Source of the DNA: Atrina japonica
Taxonomy: Eukaryota; Mollusca; Bivalvia; Pterioida; Pinnidae
Length of the DNA: 64,000 bases
Reading direction: 5' to 3'
NCBI GenBank assembly: GCA_030159075.1
Contig: BROG01000110.1
Location: 1,028,501 to 1,092,500, forward strand
Part shown: positions 26,559 through 55,200 of the stretch, in pieces
Layout of the letters: each line of letters starts with the position of its first letter
How positions within the stretch are numbered: the first letter of the stretch is position 1
Made by a program: the position numbers and the translations under genes
The notes under the pieces: model-generated
Told to the model about the DNA's origin: nothing
Seen by the model: only the letters and a program-made list of their open reading frames with translations
The model's database searches: none

Positions 26559-28110
26559 ATTTATATACTGGTACCAGCAGACAAAGCCTCAAATAATATA
26601 GTTTTTATTTCTAAGGCACATTACTATAATTGTTTATTAGAAGAACCTGGGTTTAATACGAATTCTGGAAATCCTACATACACACGTAGCTCACTTTCAA
26701 AGGACGAGATCCTTCAAAATCACGTGTCCGTATTACGCTCATTTGATATAGGCACAACGAATACAGATTTCGAGCTACCACATTTATATTGGATACCTAA
26801 ACTTCATAAAACCGCATATAAGCATAGATACATAGCAGGATCCAGCAAATGTTCTACCAAACCTTTATCTTTACTCCTTACCAAGATATTGACAGCCGTT
26901 AAGGAGAAACTTCAACAATACTGTACAGTTGCTTATTTCAGAAGCGGTGTAAATCAGATGTGGATACTTAAAAATTCTAAACAGCTTTTAGAAAATTTGA
27001 AGGCACACAATTTTTCTTGAATTCACAGTATCAAAACTTATGACCTCTCTACTCTTTACACTACTATTCCACATAAAAAATTAAAAGAAAGACTTTTCAG
27101 CATCATAGACAACTGTTTTTTTTTCACTAAAGGTGGTACCCCAAAATTTAAATATCTAGTGATTGGCTATCAGGATACTTATTTCGTCAAACGCCACTAT
27201 GATTCAACACATAAATACACTGAAGTTGATAAAAAACATGCTGGAATTTCTAATAGACAATATATTTGTAATGTTCGGAGACGTGGTCTTTCAATAAACT
27301 GTTGGCATTCCTATTGGAACCAATTGTGCTCCTTTATTGGCCGACCTGTTCCTTTATTCATACGAAGCAGACTTCATTCAGAAAATGCTGAATCAAAAGA
27401 AGAAAAAGTTAGCGGTGTCCTTTAATATGACATTTAGATATATCGACGACGTTTTGTCAATTAATAATGACAATTTTCATACATATGCCAATGCGATATA
27501 TCCCACGGAACTTGAAATTAAAGATACAACAGAATCAAGCACACGCTTCATACTTAGACATGTTACTTAATATAAACACAGACGGGAAATTAGCAACTAA
27601 GCTATACGACAAACGCGACGATTTCGGCTTTCCCATCGTAAATTTTCCACATTTAAGTAGTAATATCCCTCAGTCACCCTCATATGGAGTTTATATTGCA
27701 CAAATGATCCGATATGCCAGGGGTGTGTACAATATATGAAGATTTCATATACAGAGATAAACTACTCACTGACAAATTATTGACACAGGGATATCGAAAA
27801 ACCGCGTTTAATGTCAACGTTCCGCAAATTTTACGGTCGGTATAATAGTCTTGTTTGCGACTACTCTGTTTCACTAAGTGAAATGTTGAGTTGCCTTTTC
27901 GTTGGCGGTTGTTGAGACGTCTGTACCAATTGTGACGAGGATATACTCCACACGTGTTTCATTGGACTTGACTGTGGACTCACGGCGGGTGTGACCGGTC
28001 GACAGGGGATGCTTACTCCTCTGTGGCACCTGATCCCACCTCTTGGTTTCCAGAGGTCTGTGTTTGTCCATTTTTGCCGGATTTGTATATATGCCCTGGA
28101 CATTCTATGC
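26559..28110 (+). pseudogene. Penelope-like element copy 1 (broken RT)
   Basis: The RT of this copy starts with LVPADKASNNIVFISK and continues with LYWIPKLHKT, STKPLSLLLTKIL and YDLSTLYTTIPHKKLKERLF. It then shows GIP-x-GTNCAPL-type sequence in shifted frames, FRYIDDVLSINN near 27435-27465 and KLYDKRDDFGFPIV, ending with the conserved 3' UTR. Inactivating changes include a TGA at 27018-27020 (CGA in copy 2, so a CpG decay), an expanded T run near 27120, and indels around 27230-27330. RT family assignment is from motifs; no GIY-YIG endonuclease was seen. Confidence 0.78.
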
Positions 28111-30708: not shown

Positions 30709-31174
30709 ATCTCCATATGGGACGAGAGTTAAGATTGTAAATTGTATGTCTGTAAGACTATCCTTTGTGTAGGGCCCATAAAGCTTCTCCTGCATTTTTT
30801 TAAATGAGGCAGAACTATCGTATACAAAATGTACAAAAAGCAACGTTTTTACTAACGTGAACGATTAACGCCCTTGATCGGTTCTTTTCATATCCGATTG
30901 GGCGTGAAAGCTAACCAGTTAAAATGTTTCTCGTCGTTCTCGAAAAATCATGAACCCAATCACTATATGATTTAGCGGAGCTTGGATTTCCATTTCAAAT
31001 TTGAGAATAAATCGAGGATATAAATGTTCGGAAAAACAAAGAATATTTATTGAACGTGTACTGCAAATTAATGATAGGTTTACAATTGTAATTTTATGTA
31101 AAATCAGAACTTTCTTTCACCAGTAATTTGAAAAAATCTCGAGTAGTCAATAGACCCTTTAGACTGCGGTCCAG

Positions 31175-31300
31175 TGAATTTGCCGGTCCTCTGGTTGGCA
31201 AAATGATACAGATTCCCCGAAAATTATGTCAAGAAACAAACAGTTGCTATAACGACGTCTCTATGTTTTCCAGGTATCTGTATCATTTTGAAGACTAGCA
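31175..31300. mobile_element. Small palindromic insertion in the left arm
   Basis: 15-bp perfect inverted repeats CAAAATGATACAGAT (31199-31213) and ATCTGTATCATTTTG (31276-31290). The corresponding position in the right arm lacks the segment, so it postdates the arm duplication or was lost from the right. Confidence 0.6.
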
Positions 31301-31314
31301 AGTAGTTATAGGCA

Positions 31315-31433
31315 GCTCCATGGTGCGTAATTTGAATTTTGCCGCTAGGGGGCGCCACCAGTGGCGCTGTTGATGACGTCATCAGAATACTGGCTTCTGA
31401 TTGGTAAATTCAAATGCGCACCATGGAGCCGCC
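31315..31433. repeat. 119-bp palindromic module in left arm
   Basis: The ends GGCAGCTCCATGGTGCG and CGCACCATGGAGCCGCC are inverted. The module encloses a CTCF-like site, a CACC-AGTGGCGC palindrome and a TGACGTCA. The same module lies at about 41903-42025 in the right arm. Confidence 0.75.
31342..31356 (+). promoter_or_regulatory. CTCF-core-like site, left arm
   Basis: CCGCTAGGGGGCGCC fits the CTCF core CCRSYAGRKGGCRSY at all 15 positions. The partner is on the opposite strand at 41976-41990. Function in this species is inference. Confidence 0.5.
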
Positions 31434-31443
31434 TGTGACGTCA
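31374..31443. promoter_or_regulatory. Paired CRE-like sites, left arm
   Basis: TGACGTCA occurs at 31374-31381 and 31436-31443. The same octamer occurs at 34334-34341 and, inside the 14-bp palindrome ATGTGACGTCACAT, at 38802-38813 between two divergent genes. Confidence 0.6.
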
Positions 31444-31548
31444 TAACCGGAAGTGCGTCATACCGGAAGTGAGGTCATACCGGAAGTGCGTCATACCGTA
31501 AGTGAGGTCATACCGTAAGTGCGTCATACCGGAAGTGAGGTCATGTTG
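31440..31548 (+). promoter_or_regulatory. ETS-like CCGGAAGTG array, left arm
   Basis: Units of the form TCATACCGGAAGTGAGG or TCATACCGGAAGTGCG recur about six times with period ~17 bp, two having CCGTAAGT. ACCGGAAGT is the consensus ETS/GABP site. The right arm has the inverse array at about 41755-41886. A GGCGGCCATTTTGG (YY1-like) and a GTGCGCATGTGCGAG (NRF1-like) lie further in (31623, 31992). Confidence 0.6.
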
Positions 31549-31728
31549 TCATGGCAATAAGGAGAAAGAGCCAATCGTTGAGTTTGGAGGCGTGTCTATG
31601 AGCGGAAGTGAAAGGTTGTGGGGGCGGCCATTTTGGTTAAGGAGCCAATGAGAGCCTTCGTTACAAGAGGTTGGGGTCACGAGAAGTCACGTGAGTTCCC
31701 GAGAAGTCAACGGGAAGAGAGAGAAGTT

Positions 31729-31945
31729 GGGTTTTTCCAGTTTTGAGCTGAGAGTGAATCTATTTTTAGAACCGAAACTTTGGGTTTTTCCAGTTTTGAG
31801 CTGAGAGTGAATCTATTTTTAGAACCGAAACTTTGGGTTTTTCCAGTTTTGAGCTGAGAGTGAATCTATTTTTAGAACCGAAACTTTGGGTTTTTCCAGT
31901 TTTGAGCTGAGAGTGAATCTATTTTTAGAACCGAAACTTTGGGGT
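31729..31945 (+). repeat. 53-bp tandem repeat, four units
   Basis: Unit: GGGTTTTTCCAGTTTTGAGC, then TGAGAGTGAATC and TTTTTAGAACCGAAACTTT. The right arm keeps two full units (41515-41630, inverse). A single fragment lies at 33515-33550. Confidence 0.9.
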
Positions 31946-32057
31946 TTTCCAGGTTTGTGAAACTCGTAGTTGGTGGCGCCACCGTCGTTAAGAGTGCGCA
32001 TGTGCGAGAAGCGGTAGGTCGAGCTCGATTCAAGCTTGAAGTAAGACTTGTAGAGTA

Positions 32058-32275
32058 TGTACAAAGGGAGATTACTCTCTATAGACTCTATAGGTGAAAC
32101 AAAGGGAGATTACTCTGTATAGACTGTATAGATGAAACAAAGGGAGATTACTCTGTATAGACTGTATAGACTGTATAGATGAAACAAAGGGAGATTACTC
32201 TGTATAGACTGTATAGATGAAACAAAGGGATATTACTCTGTATAGACTATTGGGTGGAACAAAAGGGGAGATGAC
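32058..32275 (+). repeat. ~37-bp tandem repeat
   Basis: Unit: ACAAAGGGAGATTACTCTG, TATAGACTGTATAGATGA; about six copies. The inverse array with about seven copies is at 41028-41305. Confidence 0.9.
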
Positions 32276-32409
32276 TCTTTATGGACTGTATGCATTCAAC
32301 CAGAGAGGGAGGGTGGGTAGCGAAACAGGAAGGTTAGGAAGGGTAGCCATCTTGGGTATGGAATCATGGGATATCTAGGGACTGACTAATCTCACGGCAG
32401 GAGTGAGAA

Positions 32410-32537
32410 CTATAGAACATGTGTAACGTATTCAAAGTTTGTCAAAGTGATCAAGTGTGTACCGTTCTCATGTTTCCAAGTTTGTCAAAGTGATCAAGTG
32501 TGTACCGTTCTCATGTTTCCAAGTTTGTCAAAGTGAT

Positions 32538-32568
<31 letters not shown>

Positions 32569-32570
32569 CG
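32410..32570 (+). repeat. ~41-bp CCGTTCTCATGTTTCC repeat and (GT)n
   Basis: Unit: GTGTACCGTTCTCATG, TTTCCAAGTTTGTCAAAGTG. Related inverse units occur internally (36925-37310) and in the right arm (40765-40885), so the element spreads its own minisatellite. Confidence 0.85.
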
Positions 32571-33144
32571 TTCTCAAAGTTTGCAGCATGTGCAACGTTC
32601 TTAGTTATGAAGTCTCATCGTGACACAAGTGACAAAACTGTATGAAGTTGTTTCAACAAGTTTTTATATTTCTTGTACTACTGTATATAAAATAAAAAAA
32701 TGAAACACTTACCCAGAGAGAGTTTTTTTCTGACGATGTTGACTCTTCGAGCTTTGGCTGCCAAATGAGCTCTCAGCGGTCTAACTGAACCTATACTCTA
32801 GTCATGTGACTTTTTTTTTAGATAATTCTATTTTTAGTGCATGGAAAATAAAAAAAAACCCTATACCGATAGCAGTGGATTTTTCTTATGATGTTAACAC
32901 CTCGAGGTTCAGATCTCAAATGAGTTTTCACAGGCTGAACTGAACCTCTCTCTAGTCACATGACTTACTATATTTAGATTTTTATCTTATGAAGTGAATA
33001 CAACAAAAACACAACAATTAACAAACACAAATAAAAATTTAATGTTGAATATACGCGATTAAATAGTGTGTAGTCACTACGAATTAACACAAACACAAAC
33101 CCTGCATACCTTTAGTGAAGGTTTTCTTTTCGAATAAGTTGGGT

Positions 33145-33160
33145 GGCCCTTAAAAGGGCC
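33145..33160 (-). terminator. Histone-type 3' stem-loop A
   Basis: Minus strand GGCCCT-TTTA-AGGGCC: perfect 6-bp stem, 4-nt loop, then ACCCA, and 15 nt on CGAAAAGAAAACC, a purine block like the histone downstream element. Confidence 0.75.
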
Positions 33161-33236
33161 GTTTGGTTTTCGGGTTAAAAAACCCTGTGCTTTACAAGCA
33201 CCGACAAAACACAATCTTCAGCCTTAGGGCCTCAGC

Positions 33237-33371
33237 TCAGCTACACGTAGTGACGTACCATCTTAATAATCCAGTCTTCTGTTGATCATAGAACTCACAC
33301 TCCTGGGACGCAATCTTTAGTTTCTTTAGGGTGTACCAGGGTTTCAGCCTCCAGGAAAGTACTACGTTCAT
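33237..33371 (-). CDS. Small orphan gene A (44 aa), histone-type 3' end
   Basis: The start is the ATG at 33371, preceded by a TATAAAAAG box (33444-33436) and a CCAATCATC-containing region; the frame ends TGA. 16 of 33 central residues match the 77-aa gene at 40029-40262 (KPxY, LKxASQE, EF/EY, QKxG, R). It lacks that protein's Ala- and Cys-rich tail. The 3' stem-loop is 77 nt after the stop. It is the left-arm homologue of the right-arm gene and may be functional or decaying. No known domain. Not a histone by any motif. Confidence 0.5.
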   Translation of the reverse strand: MNVVLSWRLKPWYTLKKLKIASQECEFYDQQKTGLLRWYVTTCS

Positions 33372-34534
33372 CACATTTGTTAAAATTTTGTGTCTTCTGA
33401 AACGAATTGCGGGCGGTGAAAACAGACGCGCACAGCTTTTTATATGACCAGTACAGCGCACGCGACGTTCTCCGTCTCATCAACTTTGACCTCTCTGATG
33501 ATTGGCTATAGAGAGCTGAGTGAATCTATTTTTAGAACCGAAAGTTTAGGTATTTAGGGTATTCCCCTAATGGCATGATTCAGCTAAATAGACGTTGTTT
33601 GAACTCTTATGTTTTTAATTAGATCTTGAAATTTACTGTCTGTACATGTTTCATAAGGTAAAAACTAGACCTATGTAATAAAAAATTCAAACACTCACCC
33701 ATGCTGGCAGTGGTTTTCTATTAATTCTAATGATGTTGACACCTCGAGCTTCTGATCTCAAATGAGTACTCAGAGGCCTAATTGAGACTATTCTAGTTTT
33801 TTGTTCTAGTCATATGACTTACTTTTTACTTCTGAAATATTTTATATTTTAATGCAAGCACAATTATCTAGACCCTATCTAATAAAAAATAAAACACTCA
33901 TTCATACTGCCTACTAGTAGTGGTTTTCTTATCATTATGATGTTAACACCTCGAGGTTCAGATCTCAAATTAGTTTTCACGGACTTAACTGGACCTCTCT
34001 CTAGTCACATGACTTACTATACTTAGACTTTAATCAAGTGAATACTTCAGTCATTACAAAAGCACAGATGAAATAAAACGTTCAACGTTGAACGAATATA
34101 CACTGATACAGTAGCGAGTAGCATCCTAACGATTGTCATTCTATTTTACCTAAGTAAACACACCCGAGTCGTTCGATGTCGAATGACAGTTTATTAAGTA
34201 CGCTAATCTGTGTATTGGTGCATTGAAAATGCATCAAGAGTACGCGTTTTTATCTTTACAAGATCAAAATCTTACCGTGACTGACATTACAAAATGGCGA
34301 GACCTACCATCCTGCAAGACAAGTACAGTCAGGTGACGTCACACTAGTGCCATCAGCTGACATGTCTAAGCGGATTTCAACTCTAAATCGTTTCTGGCTT
34401 ATGATCTAAATGAAGTTCGCACCCTAAGTAGTGTTTAGTCGCTACAATATGTTAAACTTGCTGCTACAGAATAACACAACATACATAAAACATGCATACT
34501 TTTAGCTAAGGTTTTTTTTTCTAATAAGATGGGT

Positions 34535-34550
34535 GGCCCTTAAAGGGACC
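34535..34550 (-). terminator. Histone-type 3' stem-loop B (degenerate)
   Basis: GGTCCC-TTTA-AGGGCC: one wobble and one mismatch in the stem. Followed by ACCCAT and a TTAGAAAAAAAAACC block. Confidence 0.5.
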
Positions 34551-34681
34551 GCTGATTGCTCCGAAAAGCTGAATAAGGGGGACTCTAGTATTTTGTCGAA
34601 TAGTCGTACGTATTGTACAGTGTTAAAAGTGGAGGCTAAGGTCTAGTTGGTCCCTGGTGTTGTGTAGTAGGCGAAGATGGT

Positions 34682-34816
34682 CTAGTAAGTAATGATGGGG
34701 GTCCTACAAGAATCTATTGACCTGTGTCGCCTTACTACAATACGTGTTCTCCATGTAAGAATGATTCTCGTGTTTCTCTCTTCGGGTTGCATATCAATGT
34801 CGGATGAGTTATCCAT
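34682..34816 (-). CDS. Small orphan ORF B (44 aa), weak 3' stem-loop
   Basis: ATG at 34816-34814, TAG at 34684-34682. Basic and Arg-rich (TRIILTWRTRIVVRRHRS). The region after the stop continues without a clear frame to a degenerate stem-loop at 34535-34550. The 3' flank (about 34430-34530) matches the 3' flank of gene A, so this is another member of the same gene array, probably truncated. No family recognised. Confidence 0.35.
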   Translation of the reverse strand: MDNSSDIDMQPEERNTRIILTWRTRIVVRRHRSIDSCRTPIITY

Positions 34817-34987
34817 GATGAACTAATACCGAGACTTAGACAGTACTAGTTTATATAGAGTTTATGACTTACGCTGTATACTCTGCGTTTTCTTGTGATG
34901 TGAGCTCCAGATACCAAACAAGTCACATAATCCCTGAATGGCAACTTTCTACACTCTCTTATCTTTTTTTTCTCTCTTCATTTCCCC

Positions 34988-34989
<2 letters not shown>

Positions 34990-35022
<33 letters not shown>

Positions 35023-35034
35023 GTTTCCCACATT

Positions 35035-35088
<54 letters not shown>

Positions 35089-35100
35089 TCCCACATTTCT
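34990..35100. repeat. Two (CT)n runs
   Basis: CT runs separated and followed by GTTTCCCACATTTCTTC; long Ser/Leu-rich ORFs across are artefacts. Confidence 0.95.
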
Positions 35101-35339
35101 TCTCTTTCACTCCTGTTCTGATTCTTTATATTATTTGTCTTTGATTTTACACATAAAAAAGAAGAAGAAGAAGCAAAAAAAAAAAATGAGTATATATATA
35201 TAGTGGTAAGAAATGTGGGAAATCAGATCAACATCGACGAATGGGTCAAATGTTAAAAATGGGAACAATAAAGAGACAAAGTCGGTGGGCCTAAGACTGA
35301 TTATAGTAACAGCAGTTCTGTAGTCTCCTTATCAGCATT

Positions 35340-36470
35340 CTAATAAAAAGACGTATTCCCTTTGTCATCTCTGTATGCCTTACTTATTCTCTTTGTATGC
35401 CTTACTTATACTCTTTGTATATTCTGCCAGTCTCATAGAGTTGCGTAATGCACTTCTGTTTTATACCTCTAATAAGTCGTATAATTTTTTATCCTCTTTG
35501 TCACCGTATCTGTGAAGATACATACTAGATACTGTATGACCAAACACAAGGTCAGTTTCATCAAGTCTAATACCCCGCTAAAGAGAGCTTTTGAAATAGT
35601 CTTCAGAGAATTAGTGTTGCCTTACTGTTACTATGTATAATGCATAAGAATGAAGTAAAACACGTATAACTTTGCACTCATAACTCTGTAACATTCTAGA
35701 GAAACAGGCAAAACAGTACCTTTTACAAGACGTACTCCCTTTGTACCCTTACTTTCTGCATCCTTACTTATTCTCTTTGTATGCCTTACTTATACTCTTT
35801 GTATATTCTGCCAGTCTGATAGAGTTGCGTTATAGACGTCTGTTTTATACCTTCTAATAAGTCGTATAATTTTTTATCCTTTTTGTCACCGTATCTGTGT
35901 AGATACATCCTAGATACTGTATGTTTACATCTTAATCACCAACTTACACTACACAAACACATGGTCAGTTTCATCAAGTCTAATACCCCGCTAAAGAGAG
36001 CTTTTGAAATAGTCTGCAGAGAATTAGTGTTGCCCTACTGTTACTTTGTATAATACATAAGAATGAAGTAAAACACGTATAACTTTACACTCATAACTCT
36101 GAAATAGTCTAGAGTACGTTTTACTTTACTGATACGTATGAGATTATCTATACGGCATTAGACGCACTCCCTTTGTACCCTTACTTTCTGCATCCTTACT
36201 TATTCTCTTTGTATGCCTTACTTATACTCTCTGTATCCCGCCCTTTTTCATAGAGTTGAGTTATACACTTCTGTTTTATACCTTCTAATAAGTCGTATAA
36301 ATTTTATTCCTCTGTATCACTGTATCTGTGTGTAGATACGTAGTAGATACTATATATACACCTTAATAACCAACATACAATACACAAGCACAAGCTAATT
36401 TTTTCTCAAGTCTAAAACCCCACTAAAGAGAACTTTTGATATAGTCTGCATTGAATGATGTTTAGCAGGG
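35340..36470. repeat. ~400-bp unit repeated three times
   Basis: Units start near 35345, 35725 and 36165. Shared segments: CTTACTTATTCTCTTTGTATG, GATAGAGTTGCGT, CTTCTAATAAGTCGTATAA, CACCGTATCTGTG and AAGTCTAATACCCCGCTAAA. No conserved ORF. Confidence 0.85.
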
Positions 36471-36589
36471 ATATCATATAAGGTATCGTAGACTTCTGTC
36501 ACACTGAAAGGAATGAGCTCTATAACTTGTCGAACCTATTGAACTTTGAAACTCTGTAAGCCAGAACATTGAACATTTCCATACTTCAC

Positions 36590-36905
36590 AACTTGTGTCA
36601 CTTGTGTTACTTGTGTCTCTTGTGTTACTTGTATCACTTGTACCACTTGTGTTACTTGTGTTATTTGTGTTACGTGTGTTACTTGTGTTACTTGTGTTAC
36701 TAGTACCACTTGTGTTACTTGTATCACTTGTACCACTTGTGTTACTTGTGTTATTTGTGTTACTTGTGTTACTAGTACCACTTGTGTCACTTGTCCCACT
36801 TGTGTTACTTGTGTTACTTGTGTTACTAGTACCACTTGTGTTACGTGTGTCACTTGTGTTACTTGTGCCACTTGTGTTACTTGTGTTACTTGTGTCACTT
36901 TGAGA
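36590..36905. repeat. ACTTGTGTT/ACTTGTGTC minisatellite
   Basis: About 30 copies of a 9-bp unit (TTACTTGTG and variants TCACTTGTG, CCACTTGTG, CTAGTACCA). Open in several frames on both strands (Thr-Gln-Val or Asn-Thr-Ser repeats on the minus strand). Short versions of the same unit occur in the right arm near 40690-40745. I treat it as a repeat, not a gene. Confidence 0.8.
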
Positions 36906-36924
36906 CATCATAACTTAGAACGTC

Positions 36925-37030
36925 GCACACGTTGCAAACTTTGAGAACGGCACAAACACTTGATCACTTTGGCAAACTTTGAAACATGAGAACGGTACAT
37001 ACTTGATCACTTTGACAAACATTGAGAACG

Positions 37031-37118
<88 letters not shown>

Positions 37119-37179
37119 TGGCAAACTTTGAAACATGAGAACGGTACATAAATGATCACTTTGACAAACATTGAGAACG

Positions 37180-37248
<69 letters not shown>

Positions 37249-37310
37249 ATCACTTTGGCAAACTTTGAAACATGAGAACGGTACATACTTGATCACTTTG
37301 ACAAACTTTT
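36925..37310 (-). repeat. Internal copies of the 41-bp unit with (CA)n expansions
   Basis: Inverse units AAACATGAGAACGGTACATA, TGATCACTTTGACAAAC separated by two CA runs (37031-37117; 37184-37244). Confidence 0.9.
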
Positions 37311-37478
37311 CAAAGTCATCTTTTGGTCATCATGTAGACGTACCGATGTGGAGCCTCCCTTCTGGGAACATCAAAGTGACTGACGGGAACGAGTCTAAAT
37401 ATAGAAGAAGAAGAAGAAGAACGGCTATAAAGTAAAGTGAAGTGCAGTGACCAAACATCATTTGAATCAGTCATCAAC

Positions 37479-37754
37479 ATGAGTTATCCAGGCTTGTCAC
37501 AGACGTACCCAAATTATTCACCTAATATTACACCTTACATAGAAGGGGCCGATGAGTTTGATGAAGTTCTCAAAACGTTAGACCAGTTGCAAGAAAAACA
37601 AGAAAACTTGCTATCCAAATTACAGAAAATGAGAGAAGAACTCACGACTATTACAGCTACTCTGAAAGAATTGAGGGAAAAATACTGCCAGGAGTCAGAA
37701 CATCGTATATGGGGTACGAATGTAAGCCTAGGCCACAGTCTCAGCTTTGTATAA
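37479..37754 (+). CDS. Small orphan gene C (91 aa), coiled coil
   Basis: A TATAAAG box at ~37423-37430 places transcription start near 37455, which selects the ATG at 37479 over the in-frame ATG at 37437. N-terminus is Pro/Tyr-rich (SYPGLSQTYPNYSPN). Residues ~25-70 form a strong coiled coil (DQLQEKQENLLSKLQKMREE, then a LKELREKY segment), followed by a polar tail. No histone-type stem-loop follows; instead ~82-bp repeats (37870-38140). No domain known to me. Confidence 0.5.
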   Translation: MSYPGLSQTYPNYSPNITPYIEGADEFDEVLKTLDQLQEKQENLLSKLQKMREELTTITATLKELREKYCQESEHRIWGTNVSLGHSLSFV

Positions 37755-37869
37755 TTTGTGGTGAAGCTTGGCAATTGGTCCATTGGACATTGGTCTTGTA
37801 TGGACAAGTACAACCGTAGTAGTGAGACAAAGTGACTTAAAAGTTTTGTTGATGTATTCATTGTGATGA

Positions 37870-38140
37870 ACGTTTTTAAGTTTAATTATTGTACATAGTC
37901 ACAGAAAGTGATTCAGTGTTCTCAAAGTTAATGGTCTGATAGTTAATGTTTTCATAGTTCATGCTTATGTATTGTACATAGTCACAGAAAGGTAATCAGT
38001 GTTCTCAAAGTGAATGTTCTGATAGTTAATGTTCTCATAGTTCATGCTTATGTATTAGTCACAGAAAGTGAATCAGTGTTCTCATAGTTAATGTTCTGAT
38101 AGTTATTGTTCTTATAGTTCATGTATTGTACATAGTCACA
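37870..38140. repeat. ~82-bp tandem repeat, three units
   Basis: Unit landmarks: CACAGAAAGTGAATCAGTG, TTCTGATAGTTAATGTT, TAGTTCATGCTTATGTATT. Lies in the possible 3' region of gene C. Confidence 0.85.
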
Positions 38141-38532
38141 GAGGGACGGCCCTAATCCTCTGTCGACTATCTAAAACGTTTTTTAGCGGGGCATTAAACT
38201 TATTAAAATTTGATCTGGTGTTTGTGTATTTATGACTAAAAGGTGTACACGTTTAGAGTACACTTAGAGTTTAAACCTATTGAATATAAGGTGTACACGA
38301 GTACACTTAAGAGTCCTGCTCTAGTATCTAAAAGGTAGACACAAAGGAGTGATCTAATGTAAAAAAAAAAACTACAAAACTATGAGTAGAAGAAGATCAA
38401 GAGTAAAAGTGTAATACTTAGAGTAGAAGAGATACACAGAAAAAATAAGAGATACAGAATAAGGGTATACAAAGGATCTATGTTTTAAAACTGCTCTAAT
38501 CAGTCATAGGTTTCTTTTCGTAAAAGTTAGGT

Positions 38533-38548
38533 GGCCCTGAAAAGGGCC
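38533..38548 (-). terminator. Histone-type 3' stem-loop D
   Basis: Minus strand GGCCCT-TTTC-AGGGCC, perfect stem with the canonical TTTC loop, preceded by AAC and followed by ACCTAAC; then CGAAAAGAAACC 15 nt downstream. Confidence 0.8.
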
Positions 38549-38564
38549 GTTGGTGTTTTAGGCT

Positions 38565-38759
38565 TTATAGCCCATGGCATAAAAAGCATTTTGTCCGTTT
38601 TCTCTGCCGTCTTTCTCTTATTCTTTTTTCAAGCTTCACGAGTTCAATCCATTCGTTGATATTTGATAACCAGCCCATCTTTCTTCCTGCTATATCGGCG
38701 CATATCATCCATTCTTCTTTTTCTTGTACTTGGTCCCACATGGTTACACAGTCAGCCAT
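38565..38759 (-). CDS. Small orphan gene D (64 aa), divergent from gene E
   Basis: ATG at 38759. Sequence has a Trp-rich first half (MW, EEWM, MGWL, NEWIEL) and a highly basic C-terminus (RIRERRQRKRTK, then CFLCHGL) that could be a nuclear or nucleic-acid-binding tail. The frame ends 17 nt before the stem-loop at 38533-38548. Head to head with gene E, 120 bp between start codons, sharing a TGACGTCA palindrome (38802-38813). No family recognised. Confidence 0.55.
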   Translation of the reverse strand: MADCVTMWDQVQEKEEWMICADIAGRKMGWLSNINEWIELVKLEKRIRERRQRKRTKCFLCHGL

Positions 38760-38879
38760 GATCAAGCAATGACTATAGACTCTGAGACATACTCGACAGG
38801 ATGTGACGTCACATGTCGCGTGAGCGTTTCTTCTTCTCCTTCTTGTTGAACATCGCTTAGTGAAAAAACTAAAACCAAA
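38760..38879. promoter_or_regulatory. Shared promoter of genes D and E
   Basis: 120 bp. Contains ATGTGACGTCACAT and a T-rich/CTTCTTCTC stretch. No clear TATA on either side. The start context of gene E, ACCAAAATGG, parallels that of the gene at 40029 (ACCAAAGATGG). Confidence 0.5.
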
Positions 38880-39107
38880 ATGGAGAGCATCTATACAGAA
38901 GCTATTTACAAAATTATTCTGTTACAACAGAAGACCAAGTGGCGTACCATGAAGTGTAATCGTTACTATCAGAGTCTACTGACAAAACTGAATCTGAGAT
39001 GGAGGCAATTGAAACATCAGCAAACCTCGCAGAAAGTCAGAGATGATTTCGATAGGCAGTACCGACAGGACTTAGAGTATTTGTCAGCTCAGTATGTTTT
39101 CTACTAG
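38880..39107 (+). CDS. Small orphan gene E (75 aa, in-frame TAG then 47 more codons)
   Basis: Start ATG at 38880; Lys/Arg/Gln-rich helix-forming sequence (RYYQSLLTKLNLRWRQLK, DDFDRQYRQDLEYL). TAG at 39105-39107, followed without frame change by 47 codons to TAA at 39249-39251, five nt before stem-loop E. The post-TAG part ends in a basic motif (RRLPLKKRRC) like the end of gene F (LPFKKRFC). So the TAG may be a nonsense mutation in a ~122-aa gene, a readthrough site, or an artefact. No family recognised. Confidence 0.5.
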   Translation: MESIYTEAIYKIILLQQKTKWRTMKCNRYYQSLLTKLNLRWRQLKHQQTSQKVRDDFDRQYRQDLEYLSAQYVFY

Positions 39108-39256
39108 AAAAAACAGATTAGAGCTAGTTTTCGTCAACAACAGATACCGATCATCATGACGATCAAGAGAAAGACAGATGATCTACTGGAAGCAGAACGC
39201 CGTTTACCTCTGAAAAAGAGAAGATGTTTACTGTCAATATTAGTAACCTAACTAAC

Positions 39257-39272
39257 GACCCTTTTCAGGGCC
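39257..39272 (+). terminator. Histone-type 3' stem-loop E
   Basis: GACCCT-TTTC-AGGGCC followed by ACCCAAC; one A-C mismatch in the stem. Then TTAGAAAAG as the purine block. Confidence 0.7.
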
Positions 39273-39500
39273 ACCCAACTCATTAGAAAAGTAATCTAAA
39301 CTGTATTGAGATATGTTACATCTACTACTACTGTATAAAACATAAAACCTGTTACTCATTTTATCGGTTATAAACCCTATAAACTCATTTTATTGTGTCA
39401 TAAACCCTATAACTCATATTCTTGTCTCATAAACCCTATAACTCATTTTATTATATACACTGCACATTCAGTTTAAGGTTTCTTCTCGTAAGATATAAGT

Positions 39501-39516
39501 GGTCCTGAAAAGGACC
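39501..39516 (-). terminator. Histone-type 3' stem-loop F
   Basis: Minus strand GGTCCT-TTTC-AGGACC, perfect 6-bp stem with a compensated base pair relative to stem-loop D (T-A for C-G), then ACTTATATC and CGAGAAGAAACC. The compensated pair is evidence the fold, not only the sequence, has been kept. Confidence 0.8.
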
Positions 39517-39542
39517 GTTGTTTTTGGCATATCTGCCATGAT

Positions 39543-39812
39543 TCATGTACAGAATCTCTTTTTAAACGGCAAACACTTCTCATCCATCTGCTTACGTTTT
39601 TTCTCTTCACTACCAAACCGTAAAACAGAATTGAGAAGTACAATTCGTCTCAGGCGAACATCTTCTTTTCCCTGATGAAAGTTCAGATCAATCTTTCGTA
39701 ACTTCTCTTTAGTATCACGAATAATCTGCCTAGTATCATATACAGGCTCGATTAGAACAGGTTCGATTTCTTGTTCCATAGTGTACTCCATAGTATAAGC
39801 CATGTTTGACAT
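39543..39812 (-). CDS. Small orphan gene F (89 aa)
   Basis: ATG at 39812, preceded by A/T-rich sequence and a CCAAT box. N-terminus acidic/Met-rich (YTMEYTMEQEIEPVLIEP), a middle amphipathic region (RQIIRDTKEKLRKIDLNF) and a C-terminus LPFKKRFC similar to the end of gene E's extended frame. The stop is 26 nt before stem-loop F. Divergent from the 77-aa gene at 40029, 216 bp between starts. No known domain. Confidence 0.55.
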   Translation of the reverse strand: MSNMAYTMEYTMEQEIEPVLIEPVYDTRQIIRDTKEKLRKIDLNFHQGKEDVRLRRIVLLNSVLRFGSEEKKRKQMDEKCLPFKKRFCT

Positions 39813-40028
39813 TTTTTTATTTTTATCACTCTTAGACTGATTTCTCCTAGCCGTCTATCACTCTTGACGTTTTCATTGGTGGAATCACGTTGCCAAACGA
39901 TACATAGACCAATCATCAAAAAGGTCAAAGTTGACGAGACGGAGTGCGTCGCGTGCACTATACTGCTCATATAAAAAGCCGTGCGCGTCTCATTTCACTG
40001 CGCTTCATTCCAGAAGACAAAACCAAAG
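39813..40028. promoter_or_regulatory. Shared promoter of gene F and the 77-aa gene
   Basis: Contains TATAAAAAG at 39970-39978 for the right-hand gene and two inverted CCAAT-type boxes (ATTGGTGG; CCAATCATC). The half nearest the right gene is homologous to the gene A promoter (GTCGCGTGC, ATATAAAAAGC, TGTGCGCGTC). Confidence 0.6.
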
Positions 40029-40262
40029 ATGGCACAGCCAACTAGGACAACAACAAACATTTATTTGGACAGCACACTCTTTTGGGCGAGTAAGCCCAAA
40101 TACATTTTGGACAGATTGAAGACGGCCTCCCAGGAGTGGGAGTATTTTGAGAAGCAGAAGGCCGGGATGACGAGATTCTGTGAAGTTGCTGCGGCCCGTG
40201 CAGCAGCAGCAGAAAGGAAAAAGCTAGTGTGCTGTAGGGAGTGCTGCTGCTGTTGCCTATAA
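40029..40262 (+). CDS. Small orphan gene G (77 aa), histone-type 3' end
   Basis: ATG at 40029, 59 bp after the TATA start, TAA at 40260-40262. Central helix-like block (KPKYILDRLKTASQEWEYF, QKAGMTRF) shared with gene A. C-terminus has an Ala-rich segment (AAARAAAAERKK) then a Cys cluster (CCRECCCCCL), encoded by GCAGCA- and TGCTGC-type triplets and possibly expanded. Stem-loop 31 nt after the stop. Not a histone by motif; no family recognised. Confidence 0.55.
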   Translation: MAQPTRTTTNIYLDSTLFWASKPKYILDRLKTASQEWEYFEKQKAGMTRFCEVAAARAAAAERKKLVCCRECCCCCL

Positions 40263-40293
40263 GGCACAGGGTTTTAAACAACCCGAAACAAAC

Positions 40294-40309
40294 GGCCCTT
40301 TTCAGGGGT
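40294..40309 (+). terminator. Histone-type 3' stem-loop G
   Basis: GGCCCT-TTTC-AGGGGT then CACCTAAC; the last two stem pairs are weakened by one inserted G. Followed by CGAAAAAGAAACC. Loop and flanks are canonical. Confidence 0.65.
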
Positions 40310-41975
40310 CACCTAACTTACACGAAAAAGAAACCTTAACTGAAACTATGCAGTTTTTGTGTTGTGTTATACTATAGTGGTAAGTCTAGTAGTAAGTAAG
40401 TTTAATTCTTTTACTTGATTGAACAAATTTTATGAGATAGAAATCAATTCTAAAAATAGTAACATTAAAAACTTGAAAATAAGTTCAGTTAGACTACTGA
40501 GAGCTCATTTGGCAGCCGAAGCTCGAAGAGTCAACATCGTCAGAAAAACTCTCTCTGGGTAAGTGTTTAATTTTTTTATTTTATATACAGTAGTACAAGA
40601 AATAATATAAAATAATACAGATACTATTTTCACTATCTGAACTTTGATACTTGTTGAAACGACGTAAGTGAACAACTTCATACTTCGCAACTTTGTCACT
40701 TGTGTCACTTTGTCACTTGTGCTACTTGTGTCACTTTGTCACTTTGAGACTTCATAACTTAGAACGTTGCACACGTTGCAAACTTTGAAACATGAGAACG
40801 GTACACACTTGATCACTTTGACAAACTTTGAAATATGAGAACGGTACACACTTGATCACTTTTGCAAACTTTGAATACGTTGCACACTTTCATGTTCTAT
40901 GGTTCTCACTCCTGCCGTGAGATTAGTCAGTCCCATGATTCCATACCCAAGATGGCTACCCTTCCTAAACTTCCTGTTTCGCTACCCACCCACCCCTCTG
41001 GTTTATTGCCTACAGCCCATAAAGAGTCATCATCCCTTTTGTTCCACCCTATAGTCTATACAGAGTAATCGCCCTTTGTTTCATCTATACAGTCTATACA
41101 GAGTGATCTCCCTTTTCCCCATCTCTACAGTCTATACAGAGTAATCTCCCTTTGTTCCACTATAGAGTCTATACAGAGTAATCTCCCTTTGTTTCACCTA
41201 TACAGTCTATACAGAGTGATCTCCCTTTAGTCCTACTCATACAAGCTATACAGAGTAATCTCCCTTTGTTTCACCTGTAAAGTCTATACAGAGTGATCTC
41301 CCTTTGTACATACTCGTCACTTCTACAAGCCTTAGTACAAGTCTTAGTTCAAGCTTGAATCGAGCTCGGCCTATCGCTTCTCGTGCATGCGCATGATACA
41401 CAACTCTCAACGACGGTGCCGCCACCAACTACTAGTTTCACCGACGGTGGCGCCACCAACTACTAGTTTCACCGACGGTGGCGCCACCAACTACTGGTTT
41501 CACAAACCTGGAAAAACCCAAAGTTTCGGTTCTAAAAATAGATCCACTCTCAGCTCAAAACTGGAAAACCCCAAAGTTTCGGTTCTAAAAATAGATTCAC
41601 TCTCAGCTCAAAACTGGAAAAACCCAACTTCTCTCTCTTCCCGTTGACTTCTCGCAAACTCACGTGACCTCTCGTGAACTCTCGTGACCCCAACCTCTTG
41701 TAACGAAGGCTCTCATTGGCTCCTTAACCAAGATGGCCGCCTCCACAACCTTCCACTTCCGGTCATAGACACGCCTCCAAGCTCAACGATTGGCTCTTTC
41801 TCCTTATTGCCATGACAACATGACCTCACTTCCGGTATGACCTCACTTCCGGTATGACCTCACTTCCGGTATGACGCACTTCCGGTTATGACGTCACAGG
41901 TGGCTCCATGGTGCGCATTTGAATTGACCAATCAGAAGCCAGTATTCTGATGACGTCATCAACAGCGCCACTGGT

Positions 41976-41990
41976 GGCGCCCCCTAGCGG
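41976..41990 (-). promoter_or_regulatory. CTCF-core-like site, right arm
   Basis: Reverse complement of the left-arm site, also a 15/15 match to the core. The pair is convergent, an automatic result of the inverted arms. Confidence 0.5.
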
Positions 41991-42070
41991 CAAAATTCAA
42001 ATTGCGCACCATGGAGCTGCCTATAACTACTCTAGCAAAGTACCAGGACCGCAGTTACTGCTAAAGGGTC

Positions 42071-44574: not shown

Positions 44575-46345
44575 AAACGGCAAAATTGGTTTTGAGACAA
44601 GCAACATGAATAATATAGTTTTTATTTGTAAGGCACAGTACTATAATTGTTTATTAGAAGAACTTCGGTTTAATACGAATTCTGGTAATCCTACATACAC
44701 ACATAGCTCACTTTCAAAGGATGAGATCCTTCAAAATCACGTGTCCGTATTACGCTCATTTGATATACCTACAACGGAGACCGATTTCGAGCTACCACAT
44801 TTATACTGGATACCTAAACTTCGTTAAACCACATGTAAGCAAAGATACATAGCAGGGTCCAGCAAATGTTCTACCAAACCTTTATCTTTACTCCTTACCA
44901 ATATATTGACAGCCGTTAAGGAGAAACTTCAACAATACTGTACAGTTGCTTATTCCAGAAGCGGTGTAAATCAGATGTGGATACTTAAAAATTCTAAACA
45001 GCTTTTAGAAAATTTGAAGACACACAATTTTTCTCGAATTCACATTATCAATACTTATGACCTCTCTTCTCTTTACACTACTATTCCACATAAAAAATTA
45101 AAAGAAAGACTTTTCAGCATCATAGACAACTGTTTTTTCACTAAAGGTGGTACCCCAAAATTTAAATATCTAGTGATTGGCTATCAGGATACTTATTTCG
45201 TCAAACACCACTCTGATTCTACACATAAATATATTGAAGTTGATATAAAAAACATGCTGGGATTTCTAATAGACAATATATTTGTAATGTTCGGAGACGT
45301 GGTCTTTCAACAAACTGTCGGCATTCCTATGGGAACCAATTGTGCTCCTTTATTGGCCGAACTGTTCCTTTATTCATACGAAGCAGACTTCATTCAGAAA
45401 CTGTTGAATCAAAAGAAGAAAAAGTTAGCGGTGTCCTTTAATTTGATATTTAGATATATATCGACGACGTTTTGTCAATTAATAATGACAATTTCCATAC
45501 ATATGTCAATGCGATATATCCCAGCGAACTAGAAATTAAAGATACAACAGAATCAAGCACACACGCTTCATACTTAGACATTTTACTTAATATAAACACA
45601 GACGGGAAATTAGCAACTAAGCTATACGATAAACGCGACGATTTCGGCTTTCCCATCGTAAAATTTTCCACATTTAAGTAGTAATATCCCTAAGTCACCC
45701 GCATATGGAGTTTATATTTCACAAATGATCCGATATGCCAGGGCGTGTACAACATATGAAGATTTCATATACAGAGGTAAACTACTCACTGACAAATTAT
45801 TGACACAGGGATATCGGAAACCGCGTTTAATGTCAACGTTCCGCAAATTTTATGGTCGGTATAATAGTCTTGTTTGCGACTACTCTGTTTCACTAAGTGA
45901 AATGTTGAGTTGCCTTTTCGTTGACGGTTGTTGAGACGTCTGTACTAATTGTGACGAGGATACACTCCTCACGTATTTCATTGGATTTGATATTGGACTC
46001 ACGGCGGGTGTGACCTGTCGACAGGGGATGCTTACTCCTCTATGGCACCTGATCCCACCTCTTGGTTTCCAGAGGTCCGTGTTTGTCCATTTTTACCAGA
46101 TTTGTATCTACAGTTTAACCTGCCTTAGTGACCCACTGAATTAAGAGACTACCTGTCTTATGTGACCTTAATATGTGGCTCCCAACGTATATCAATATAT
46201 ATATATTAACCTGAATTAAGAGACCACCTGTCATATGTGACCCTTTTTGCTTCTTCCCATAGATGGTCTCTTAAAACAGGTTTGACTGTATATCCTGGAC
46301 ATCGTTAAAATTTATACTTTGATATCTGAGATGTTTTATATTTAG
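44575..46345 (+). pseudogene. Penelope-like element copy 2 (near-intact RT, broken at the active site)
   Basis: RT blocks in order: NNIVFICKAQYYNC, LPHLYWIPKL, (a stop at 44825) STKPLSLLLT, MTAVKEKLQQYC, YDLSSLYTTIPHKKL, MLGFLIDNIFVMFGD, VGIPMGTNCAPLLAELFLYSY. At 45455-45462 an extra AT in an ATAT run shifts the frame just before the catalytic YIDD; the motif continues in the next frame (DDVLSINNDNF). Later: RDDFGFPIV, then STFRKFYGRYN and the 3' UTR. The MITE at 46111-46288 interrupts the UTR. Confidence 0.8.
46111..46288. mobile_element. 178-bp mariner-type MITE nested in copy 2
   Basis: Ends CAGTTTAACCTG and CAGGTTTGACTG are inverted (11 of 12 by eye), flanked by TA on both sides (46109-46110 and 46289-46290). 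The empty site is visible in related copies (TTTGTATCTATGTCCTGG at about 17008). Interior has two similar blocks: ACCTGTCTTATGTGACC and ACCTGTCATATGTGACC. Confidence 0.85.
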
Positions 46346-52210: not shown

Positions 52211-55200
52211 GTTTGAAGGGGTGTATTTGTGATCCTTTTGGTACAATCGGAAATATGTTGTACTTTAAACAGGCCAGTGGTGACGGTTTTGTCCGAATTA
52301 TAGTTTCAACAGTTGTTACGCGACAAAGGTTGAACATATAACGCCGACTTTTATTTTCGTGCTGAATGGTCTGTGATGACGAGTCGAAGACCTGAATCAC
52401 TGCAGTCCAGGCAATGTAATAAGGCCAAATCAAAACCACTGCTTCTATTCACTTTATTCAATCCCGCGAAAACATTCAGATTCCAAAACCCAAGTATTTC
52501 TTGGGTTTAAAATATACTTCTTTAAGAACACCCTCTTCATTTTAAAAATCCATGTAATACTTGGCCACTGATTTCTTATTTTACCGTTGTGTCCCCGAGG
52601 GTATACATAAACCCAGTACCTGGCATTTCGATACCAGGCGATTACTTTATACTTAAAGTCATATTTCACTCAGATAGTATCGTTTAAATTCTAAATTTCT
52701 CCAAAGGTAAGATATTCATTTTACAGTGGATGCTCTTAGATGTATAAGTAATACATTTAATTTTTTTATTTGGCCTTGTGTGATAGGGCCTACCACTCTT
52801 TCTTTCGGATGTATATATTTATATTAAATCAGAACTCAACTGACGAAGTCTTATTGACACAAACGATCGTCTTGACCATTTGTTTTGACTTCCTTTTGTA
52901 AAACTATAACATCGGTATTGTTAATAAAATTTATATTGGTTATGTTAACATAAGGTAAGCTATTAAACTCACGGATGATATTTTATATAAACACATGTAT
53001 TATAAACATAATACTAAAGTTACAGTTTACAATACAATCGTTTCTGCCAATTAGACTACATAGCTCCAATTTTAAATAGATTTTCTAAAACGAAAGTGGT
53101 ATAATACAAGGCAACAAATAGGCCATTAACGCTGACGTAATCAGTATTAATGTTTTGTTTTACACTTTTGAGAGCATCTCGATCTAAAGCAATATGAGGT
53201 ATCGTCCTCGGCATTTTTTTCAAAATTGTCAAATCGACTATATACCATTTGAATACAATTTATGATATCTGAACACGAAATAACATTCCTTTATTGTGAA
53301 TAAAAATATAATTTTCATGCATTAATTAAATAGTGTATTGCAATGCATTATTTCTCTGGCTATATTTGTAACAATATCATGTCAATGTTATAAGCGGCCC
53401 AGTTCATACACTCATATTATAGACGTAGGACATAAGGGGCTTTTGTTATTCTGCACGTGCTAGACTATGTAAGTCGCCATGTTTTGTACTGCTGCAAGTT
53501 GCATATGATGAAGAGCTACGAACTCATCTGAAGTGTCGTCCAGTGTTTTAGTGAACTATGAAATAGTTAAACATGGTGTCAGAAGTGCGTAAGTACTCCG
53601 TCATGACTCGTGGTAAACAGAGCAATCCTGAAACTTTGTAAAATGTTGGTCGAGTCAGTCAGTAGGCTACCAGTCAAGTACCAGAGCACCGCGTTTTCAC
53701 AAGTCAGTGTGTTAATGCCATACTATTGATTTAGTAACTTCTTACCGTTCTATCGTGTTGACTCACAAATGGCAGAAGGGCAAGAACAACCGCAGGTACA
53801 GGGACATTCGCAATTAACGATGCAAAGTAGCATTCCGTTGCCTCCCAAGTTAGATACACAAGGTAATTTATCGCAGAACTGGAAGCGATGGCGTCAAATT
53901 TGGGACTCCTATGCTATAGTGTCGGGACTTGATAGCAAGGAAGAGAAGTATAAGGTAGCTACGTTTATTACATGTATAGGTCTGGATGGGCTGGAAATTT
54001 TCAATGGTCTGCCCTTAAGTGAGGAAGATAAGGGTAAATTAGATCCAGTATTGACTCAAATGCAAGAATATTGTGTTGGCAAAACGAATAAAGTGTATGA
54101 ACGTTATGTGTTCAATAATACTGCGCAAGACCCAGACCAAACGATAGAAAGTTATGTCACAAAACTCCGCAAACTTTCACTCACATGTGAATTCGGTGAA
54201 TTAAAGGATGAAATGTTGCGTGACCGACTGGTTTGTGGCATACGAGACAACGTTGTGCGTAAAAAACTGTTACAAGATTCTGAGTTATCTTTACAGCAGT
54301 GTATAGATATTTGTCGTGCATCAGAAACTGCTAAGGTGCAAATGAAAGTTATTACTTCAAACCAGGAAGGGAATGAAGTCCATTTTGTGAAAACGAAACA
54401 CAAAAATATGCCTATGGGTAAGCATAGCCCCCACCCTCATCCAAAACAGAGTGGTACAGTTAGTTCAAATGCGCATACTAAATCCACAAGTCAGACTACA
54501 CCTAAAAGACCATGTAAATTTTGTGGGCGGAGACATCCGTATGATAAGAAACAATGTCCAGCGTATGGACAAATATGCAAAAAATGTGGAGGTAGTAATC
54601 ATTTTGCGATTAAATGTCCGGAGAAAACACGCAGAAAAACAGTTCATGCAGTTGAATACGAATCAGATTCAGACTCCGAGGAGCTAATGAGTGTTGATGA
54701 AATTATTGATTATGTGCATGATGACGTCACAAAACAGAAAATTTTTGTGAATATGGATATTGGTCAAGCACGAGTCAAATTTCAAATCGACAGTGGAGCC
54801 ACATGTAGTATACTCCCATTATGTCATGTGCCGAAAGGATGCAAACTCAGGAAAACAAAACATAGTTTGAGAATGTATAACAATGCAAGTCTACAGCCAG
54901 TTGGCAAATGTAAAGTGAAAGTTACAAACCCAAAGAACAGTAAGCAGTATAGTGTTGATTTCACAGTGGTTAATGATGACCTTACTTGTATGCCAATTTT
55001 AGGTTGGTCAGATGTACAAGATATGGAGCTATTGCAAATCAGACATGAGAATATAATGGCAGTAAACACAGGAATTGTCAGTGATAATGCACTTTTTACT
55101 GAGTTCAGTGATGTATTTGAAGGGGAAGGACTAATTGCCGGAAAAGTCCACTTGGAAATCGATAATACCCAAGCACCTGTGAAATTACCACCCAGACGTG

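Follow-up and report, generated by a model that had tools for sequence, protein, structure and literature searches.

A repeated inverted-arm element of Atrina japonica with Maverick/Polinton-type ends and histone-type stem-loops behind small genes

Ends, target site and inverted arms

We examined a stretch of 64,000 nucleotides from the bivalve Atrina japonica (GCA_030159075.1, contig BROG01000110.1, positions 1,028,501 to 1,092,500 of the forward strand; hereafter the window, whose own numbering is used). Within these 64 kb lies a single element with inverted arms, 10,731 bp long (31301-42031), which carries seven small genes, A to G, and six histone-type stem-loops. Its termini read 5'-AGTAGT...ACTACT-3' (left end exactly AGTAGTTATAGG, right end exactly CCTATAACTACT), and a perfect 6-bp direct repeat flanks it, whereas flanking repeats of 4, 5, 7, 8 or 9 bp all contain mismatches. 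The features that bound the element are:

31295..31300, unstranded: target-site duplication CTAGCA, left copy (exact 6-bp identity to 42032-42037)
42032..42037, unstranded: target-site duplication CTAGCA, right copy (perfect direct repeat of 31295-31300)
31301..33509 (inner end approximate), plus strand: left inverted arm, terminus AGTAGTTATAGG, containing gene F (arm alignment)
39904..42031 (inner end approximate), minus strand: right inverted arm, terminus CCTATAACTACT, containing gene E (arm alignment)
31305..31439, plus strand: Y-shaped terminal palindrome at the left arm tip (DNA fold -37.7 kcal/mol, z -7.2; none of 200 shuffles reached this stability)
31153..31300, unstranded: palindromic repeat resembling a miniature inverted-repeat transposable element, left part, outside the element (joined-flank fold)
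42038..42070, unstranded: palindromic repeat, right part, outside the element (joined-flank fold)

The original prediction, made from the letters alone, had described inverted arms of about 2.2 kb within 31153..42070. The length was right (31301-~33509 and 42031-~39904); the outer limits were not, as 31153-31300 and 42038-42070 form a separate palindrome. When the flanks are joined minus one CTAGCA copy they give a continuous 181-bp palindrome (-70.5 kcal/mol; best of 200 with the right flank alone shuffled, -61.5 kcal/mol), and the earlier outer ends are therefore a separate palindromic repeat interrupted by the element. This rules out GACCCTTTAG...CTAAAGGGTC as element ends. No second copy of the 181-bp repeat was found within the window. 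Target duplications, which the prediction had proposed looking for, are present as the perfect CTAGCA pair.

Identity between the arms, taken in 150-nt steps of the left arm, is 98% in steps 1-2, 80-96% in the next six and 57-88% inward from 32501. The right arm tip (41893-42027) folds into the same Y-shaped palindrome (z about -7.2), and we take these tips to resemble the ends of parvoviruses. The two arms contain CCGGAAGT four and five times, TGACGTCA twice each (a palindromic motif, raw count 4 and 4, halved) and GCCATNTTG twice each; the shuffled mean was at most 0.04 for each motif, and the observed counts were reached in 0 of 200 shuffles. Such sites would fit an enhancer. CCAAT and GGGGCGG sites showed no convincing enrichment in the arms. 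The centre of the element (35348-36456 and 36528-37309) is taken up by a 0.4-kb repeat in three copies and by long arrays of a 9-bp unit and of CA.

Small genes and histone-type stem-loops

The seven small open reading frames (ORFs) of the original prediction were accepted as genes A-G. Along the element, the genes, their promoters and the stem-loops are arranged as follows, with scores for the Rfam family RF00032 (gathering score 34 bits):

33119..33165, minus strand: histone stem-loop and purine element of gene F (RF00032, 41.1 bits)
33237..33371, minus strand: gene F, 44 codons, homologue of gene E, with TATA at 33437-33444 (ORF and comparison with E)
34509..34555, minus strand: histone-type stem-loop of gene G, degenerate (18.7 bits, E 0.47)
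34682..34816, minus strand: gene G, 44 codons (ORF; of the fetched copies' 17 full-length matches, 9 are open at equal length)
37479..37754, plus strand: gene D, 91 codons, probably a coiled coil, without a histone stem-loop (coiled-coil families below cut-offs)
38508..38553, minus strand: histone stem-loop and purine element of gene C (RF00032, 39.3 bits)
38565..38759, minus strand: gene C, 64 codons (ORF)
38760..38879, unstranded: shared divergent promoter of C and B, 120 bp, one TGACGTCA site (sequence)
38880..39107, plus strand: gene B, first ORF, 75 codons (ORF)
39252..39297, plus strand: histone-type stem-loop after gene B, one broken pair (27.7 bits, under the gathering score)
39476..39521, minus strand: histone stem-loop and purine element of gene A (RF00032, 34.4 bits)
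39543..39812, minus strand: gene A, 89 codons (ORF)
39813..40028, unstranded: shared divergent promoter of A and E, 216 bp, TATA at 39970 (sequence)
40029..40262, plus strand: gene E, 77 codons (substitutions against F and against the copy at C671 indicate purifying selection)
40289..40336, plus strand: histone-type stem-loop of gene E, one extra base (23.2 bits, under the gathering score)

The claim of six histone-type stem-loops was confirmed (18.7-41.1 bits), each standing behind a small ORF (F, G, C, A, B and E), and three of the six score above the Rfam cut-off. A simple stem-loop pattern has six matches (at five places, one of them on both strands) against 0.84 expected, and none of 100 shuffles reached six. 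At E<=1, five Histone3 matches are found in the 64 kb, all inside the element, and the sixth appears only in a shorter search (E 0.47). A sense ORF of at least 30 codons ends 5-131 nt upstream of every stem-loop (6/6); for oriented positions drawn at random the share is 27% within 140 nt. The six are similar to one another beyond the stem, as far as the purine-rich element. The 3' stem-loop with downstream element of replication-dependent histone genes is present (three above the cut-off, three below).

The stem-loops could instead be DNA hairpins or protein-binding sites of the element, a reading that we consider improbable. It would suit an element rich in palindromes and stems without a covariation signal; against it, every stem-loop is in sense orientation and follows an ORF at 5-131 nt, and the better ones match the Rfam histone model in their flanks and in a purine element downstream.

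Histone clusters combine a stem-loop and downstream purine element with short genes in divergent pairs that share short promoters. The element is like these clusters in its stem-loops, purine element, short genes and two divergent gene pairs (C/B and A/E); it differs in that no histone was recognised in it. Genes E and F occupy mirrored positions inside opposite arms. The proteins are short and all basic except D. Gene B contains one stop, followed by a 31-codon ORF (39156-39251), and gene D is followed by ATTAAA-type signals at 38193 and 38202. An exon-like block occurs in five copies behind the stem-loops of E, F and G (40470-40560, plus strand; 32716-32805, 33701-33800, 32861-32960 and 33891-33996, minus strand); the shared core is open in one frame in each copy, GTAAGTG or GTGAGTG comes next in three, and variability is lowest at the second codon position.

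Judged by sequence, the proteins have no convincing match and are not recognisable histones. In a Pfam scan of 92 stop-to-stop frames of at least 40 codons and at least 8 kinds of residue in 32641-40700, inside the outer arms (E<=0.1), the best 25 of 35 weak families included no polymerase, integrase, transposase, capsid or histone, in agreement with the original prediction, and none of these 25 was seen to reach its cut-off. For nine ORFs no histone family was listed up to E 5 (for D, among the best 25 of 40 families), no homologue of A, E or C was found among 5.8 billion proteins at E<=1, and an E/F query had no match in the PDB. Viral contigs scanned with two stem-loop patterns, one arm-tip pattern and proteins A, E/F, D, C and B gave no match. 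We rejected matches of D to many coiled-coil families (weak, all under cut-off), B to DUF1599 (E 6e-4, under cut-off) and to a Bcl-2 chain (E 0.21, weak), A to a cytochrome construct (E 0.005, but no stretch passed) and C to CTCF (E 2.3, weak). Similarities of A to the B tail, C to D and F to G (uncorrected p 0.014-0.018 among 28 pairs) are not claimed.

These results bear on the possibility that the genes were taken from the host as histones and have since diverged strongly, or encode viral 'Histoid' proteins, and that their stem-loops were simply inherited from a histone cluster. The two divergent pairs with stem-loops speak for it by their likeness to histone clusters, as do the histone-like 'Histoid' genes of adomaviruses, one of them in a clam data set (PMC11071296). 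We nevertheless judge it very doubtful, given the absence of any listed histone family and the predicted structures: the products of genes A (pLDDT 74, pTM 0.30) and E (pTM 0.31) are each modelled, at low confidence, as one long helix and not as the three-helix histone fold. Adintoviruses and those adomaviruses that carry 'Histoid' genes are comparable as animal DNA viruses, some with adintovirus parts, that have a histone connection (PMC11071296). In adomaviruses, however, it is the protein that resembles histones, whereas here it is the mRNA end, and no virion or replicase gene is recognised; no mention of histone-type mRNA ends was found in the passages of PMC11071296 consulted. Histone replacement has been described in dinoflagellates (PMC12721341).

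Copies elsewhere and likeness to Mavericks/Polintons

A search of the genome (832 Mb, 2,347 contigs) with the stem-loop cassette of gene F, an approach suggested by the original prediction, found further copies: the best 40 of 1,262 first-look candidates were scored, and all 40, the window included, had 97-100% identity. Ten further places were fetched (six listed as inverted pairs, four single) and flanks then added. Both ends were found at eight of the ten, and all eight had Maverick-type ends and a perfect 6-bp duplication, each different:

C584, 278326-288421: both-ended copy, terminus reads AGTAGTAATAGG, 6-bp duplication
C340, 247773-258802: both-ended copy, terminus AGTAGTTATAGG, 6-bp duplication
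C86, 1112948-1123648: both-ended copy, terminus AGTAGTTATAGG, 6-bp duplication
C605, 197341-208695: both-ended copy, terminus AGTAGTTATAGG, 6-bp duplication
C20, 1440901-1449989: both-ended copy, terminus AGTAGTTATAGG, 6-bp duplication
C2, 1679299-1688619: both-ended copy, terminus AGTAGTTATAGG, 6-bp duplication
C8, 1280656-1292268: both-ended copy, terminus AGTAGTTATAGG, 6-bp duplication
C46, 2040471-2051994: both-ended copy, terminus AGTAGTTATAGG, 6-bp duplication

Outer-arm identity of these copies is 94.2-99.8% over about 450 nt, and with the window the nine copies measure 9.1-11.6 kb. Seven of the eight have F and G in both arms, with no A-E found; in the C46 copy the left arm carries F and G, the right arm no more than a part of the F 3' block. 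A single end was found at the two remaining places (left at C77, right at C671), and at C671 the gene order F, G, D, C, B, A, E is that of the window. Rfam reports 14 histone stem-loops above cut-off on the ten fetched stretches, all at gene F and none at gene G; of 17 F-type matches in the fetched copies, 14 keep the F stem unchanged and 3 have a one-base insertion in it. A second terminus of the family starts 650 bp beyond the right end of the C8 copy (L040, C8:1292918). Large inversions are a classic artefact. An assembly error or local inverted duplication is nevertheless refuted, and left a next to negligible chance, by the eight further both-ended copies, which lie on other contigs and each have a 6-bp duplication of their own. 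Two outcomes that the original prediction had named as refuting it, a single copy and an artefact of assembly, thus do not apply.

Comparison of copies also bears on the proteins. Between E and F (38 aligned codons), 17 of 21.5 synonymous and 31 of 92.5 nonsynonymous sites differ (p 1.3e-4); despite saturated synonymous sites, identity is 89% over 82 bp of promoter and 80% over 119 columns of the 3' block. Between the E genes of the window and C671, 26.3 of 39.7 synonymous and 21.7 of 155.3 nonsynonymous sites differ. By these substitution counts E is a constrained protein, clearly under purifying selection. Mismatches between the window and C671 number 5 in A, 1 in B, 3 and 4 in two pieces of D and 17 in C, with gaps in all four. 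Gene E is strongly diverged between two copies (L042 2539-2733 vs window 40065-40259) while their A and B are nearly identical, a contrast likely explained by E variants swapped between elements.

Vertebrate Mavericks have perfect 6-bp duplications and, most often, 5'-(AGT)2//(ACT)2-3' ends; intact ones are 12.7-24.6 kb long, with terminal repeats of 46-1,447 bp and accessory regions (PMC8097293). Mavericks have been reported across the mollusc genomes analysed (PMC10294476). Consistent with Maverick/Polinton structure, our element has the (AGT)2//(ACT)2 termini and perfect 6-bp duplication (window and 8/8 both-ended copies), long terminal inverted repeats (window) and accessory genes. It differs in that no pPolB, integrase, ATPase, protease or capsid gene is recognised (none among the 92 frames, best 25 of 35 weak families), in its size (9.1-11.6 kb vs 12.7-24.6 kb for vertebrate Mavericks), in its longer, gene-bearing arms and in its histone-type stem-loops. 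Because no core genes were recognised, we call it a non-autonomous relative and not a Maverick proper. The view that it falls outside any element family is not borne out, its termini and duplication being those of Mavericks/Polintons; the accompanying suggestion of a selfish or virus-derived element is supported, in that it is of a mobile, virus-derived type and repeated in the genome with target duplications. Ginger elements, too, are DNA transposons of eukaryotes, and they share with Mavericks enzymes of the integrase type. They differ in their 4-bp duplications (Ginger1 and most Ginger2; 5 bp in TDD-4/5), TGTNR termini and repeats of about 40-270 bp (PMC2836005), and Ginger was rejected on the 6-bp duplication and (AGT)2 ends.

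Polymerase loci and proposed expression in S phase

The PF03175 polymerase, of a kind that Mavericks carry, is abundant in the genome (at least 200 matches; best 78 of 1,643 candidates scored, most of the listed ones without stops) and was found in 0 of 14 control genomes; we read these loci as Maverick polymerases. A genome-wide Rfam search for the stem-loop scored the best 75 of 155,611 candidates, 72 of them over cut-off, and this list is a sample, since the window's own stem-loops are not in it. Three of the 78 scored polymerase loci (C48, C30 and C211) have a stem-loop over cut-off within 10 kb, with 0.135 expected (P 4e-4; two lists compared by eye, expectation from uniform placement). 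At each of the three, the 501 bp examined hold gene C, its stem-loop and the beginning of gene B; compared with the window they are 94-95% identical at C48 and C30 and 84% at C211. At C48 and C30 the spacing to the polymerase is nearly equal, 4.83 and 4.85 kb from start to start. This favours Mavericks carrying both the polymerase and C/B, and a helper Maverick probably carries at least that pair. The frame of gene C is open at C30 and C211 and broken at C48 and C671; between the window and C30, 6.0 of 35.3 synonymous and 10.0 of 156.7 nonsynonymous sites differ. At C1071 (21380), a diverged family end and an F-like gene lie about 4 kb from a polymerase ORF, pointing away.

The proximity of C/B to a polymerase at C48 and C30 could also mark the element as a dead product of internal deletion, that is, a formerly autonomous Maverick which lost its core module and kept leftover accessory genes, with histone-type ends that matter for the parent only. 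Its size below that of intact vertebrate Mavericks (12.7-24.6 kb; PMC8097293), the stop in B and the many F and G frames of varying length in the copies would agree. We think this unlikely, as the reduced form has itself been amplified: eight more both-ended copies of 9.1-11.6 kb have their own duplications and outer arms of 94.2-99.8% identity, and seven of them carry F and G in both arms with no A-E found.

The explanation we favour, and regard as probable in its entirety, is that the element belongs to a multi-copy family of non-autonomous Maverick/Polinton type that depends on a helper and has histone-type expression. Autonomous Mavericks in the genome would supply a polymerase and an integrase that copy and insert it in trans by recognising its (AGT)2 ends, a step we infer from the role discussed for terminal motifs in protein-primed replication (PMC8097293). 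Some of its small accessory genes form divergent pairs around short promoters, much as histone genes do in their clusters. The accessory genes would yield messages cut by the SLBP/U7 histone machinery and lacking a poly(A) tail; metazoan histone mRNAs have been described as the unique class that lacks one (PMC12775136). Such messages would therefore build up during S phase, a time at which the element could draw on replication enzymes and nucleotides, and their histone-like ends suggest genes that are on during host DNA replication. Expression in S phase and in poly(A)-minus form, as the original prediction had in part proposed, is thus inferred from message ends; a nuclear role of the proteins in replication or packaging of the element is a guess.

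Several observations weigh against this explanation. Stem covariation is no better than in shuffled sequences, and three of six stem-loops in the window copy fall below the Rfam cut-off. Among full-length frames in the fetched copies, 9 of 16 for F and 9 of 17 for G are open at window length; F variants (7 synonymous, 15 nonsynonymous) give a weak purifying signal and G variants (0 and 3) none, and the indels in these frames may reflect decay or assembly error. No histone stem-loop over cut-off was found at eight polymerase loci (3.7 kb each) or at five (about 20 kb each), no inverted-repeat pair was found around the latter five, and no complete helper with matching ends was seen among the polymerase loci examined. 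Of the 78 loci, 75 have no listed stem-loop within 10 kb, a count that decides neither way with 75 scored of 155,611. For mobile elements, a null of uniform placement is crude. The C211 polymerase lies about 8.5 kb away on the opposite side of the C/B pair compared with C48 and C30, and a search of 500 nt behind the diverged F-like gene of C1071 recognised no stem-loop.

A broader proposal, on which our judgement is evenly balanced, is that a lineage of animal Maverick viruses adopted the histone mRNA system wholesale, with accessory genes of autonomous and non-autonomous members alike stem-loop-ended, tail-less and tied to S phase. If true, this would be, to our knowledge, the first case of a virus or transposon using that system for genes other than histones, and repeated stem-loops on unrelated mobile-element genes would allow a natural test of the stem-loop's ability to confer S-phase expression on its own; the work would also describe a non-autonomous class of Mavericks and a cell-cycle strategy for them. 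We found no literature linking Mavericks/Polintons with histone stem-loops (titles and abstract openings; subscription papers mostly outside) and no paper naming a non-autonomous Polinton/Maverick (repeat databases outside scope).

Other elements in the window are a Gypsy-type retrotransposon (53367-58516) with long terminal repeats 99% identical and a single 1,372-codon open frame, and a presumably Penelope-like reverse-transcriptase element in two copies (26592-28091 and 44609-46110) that are 94% identical.

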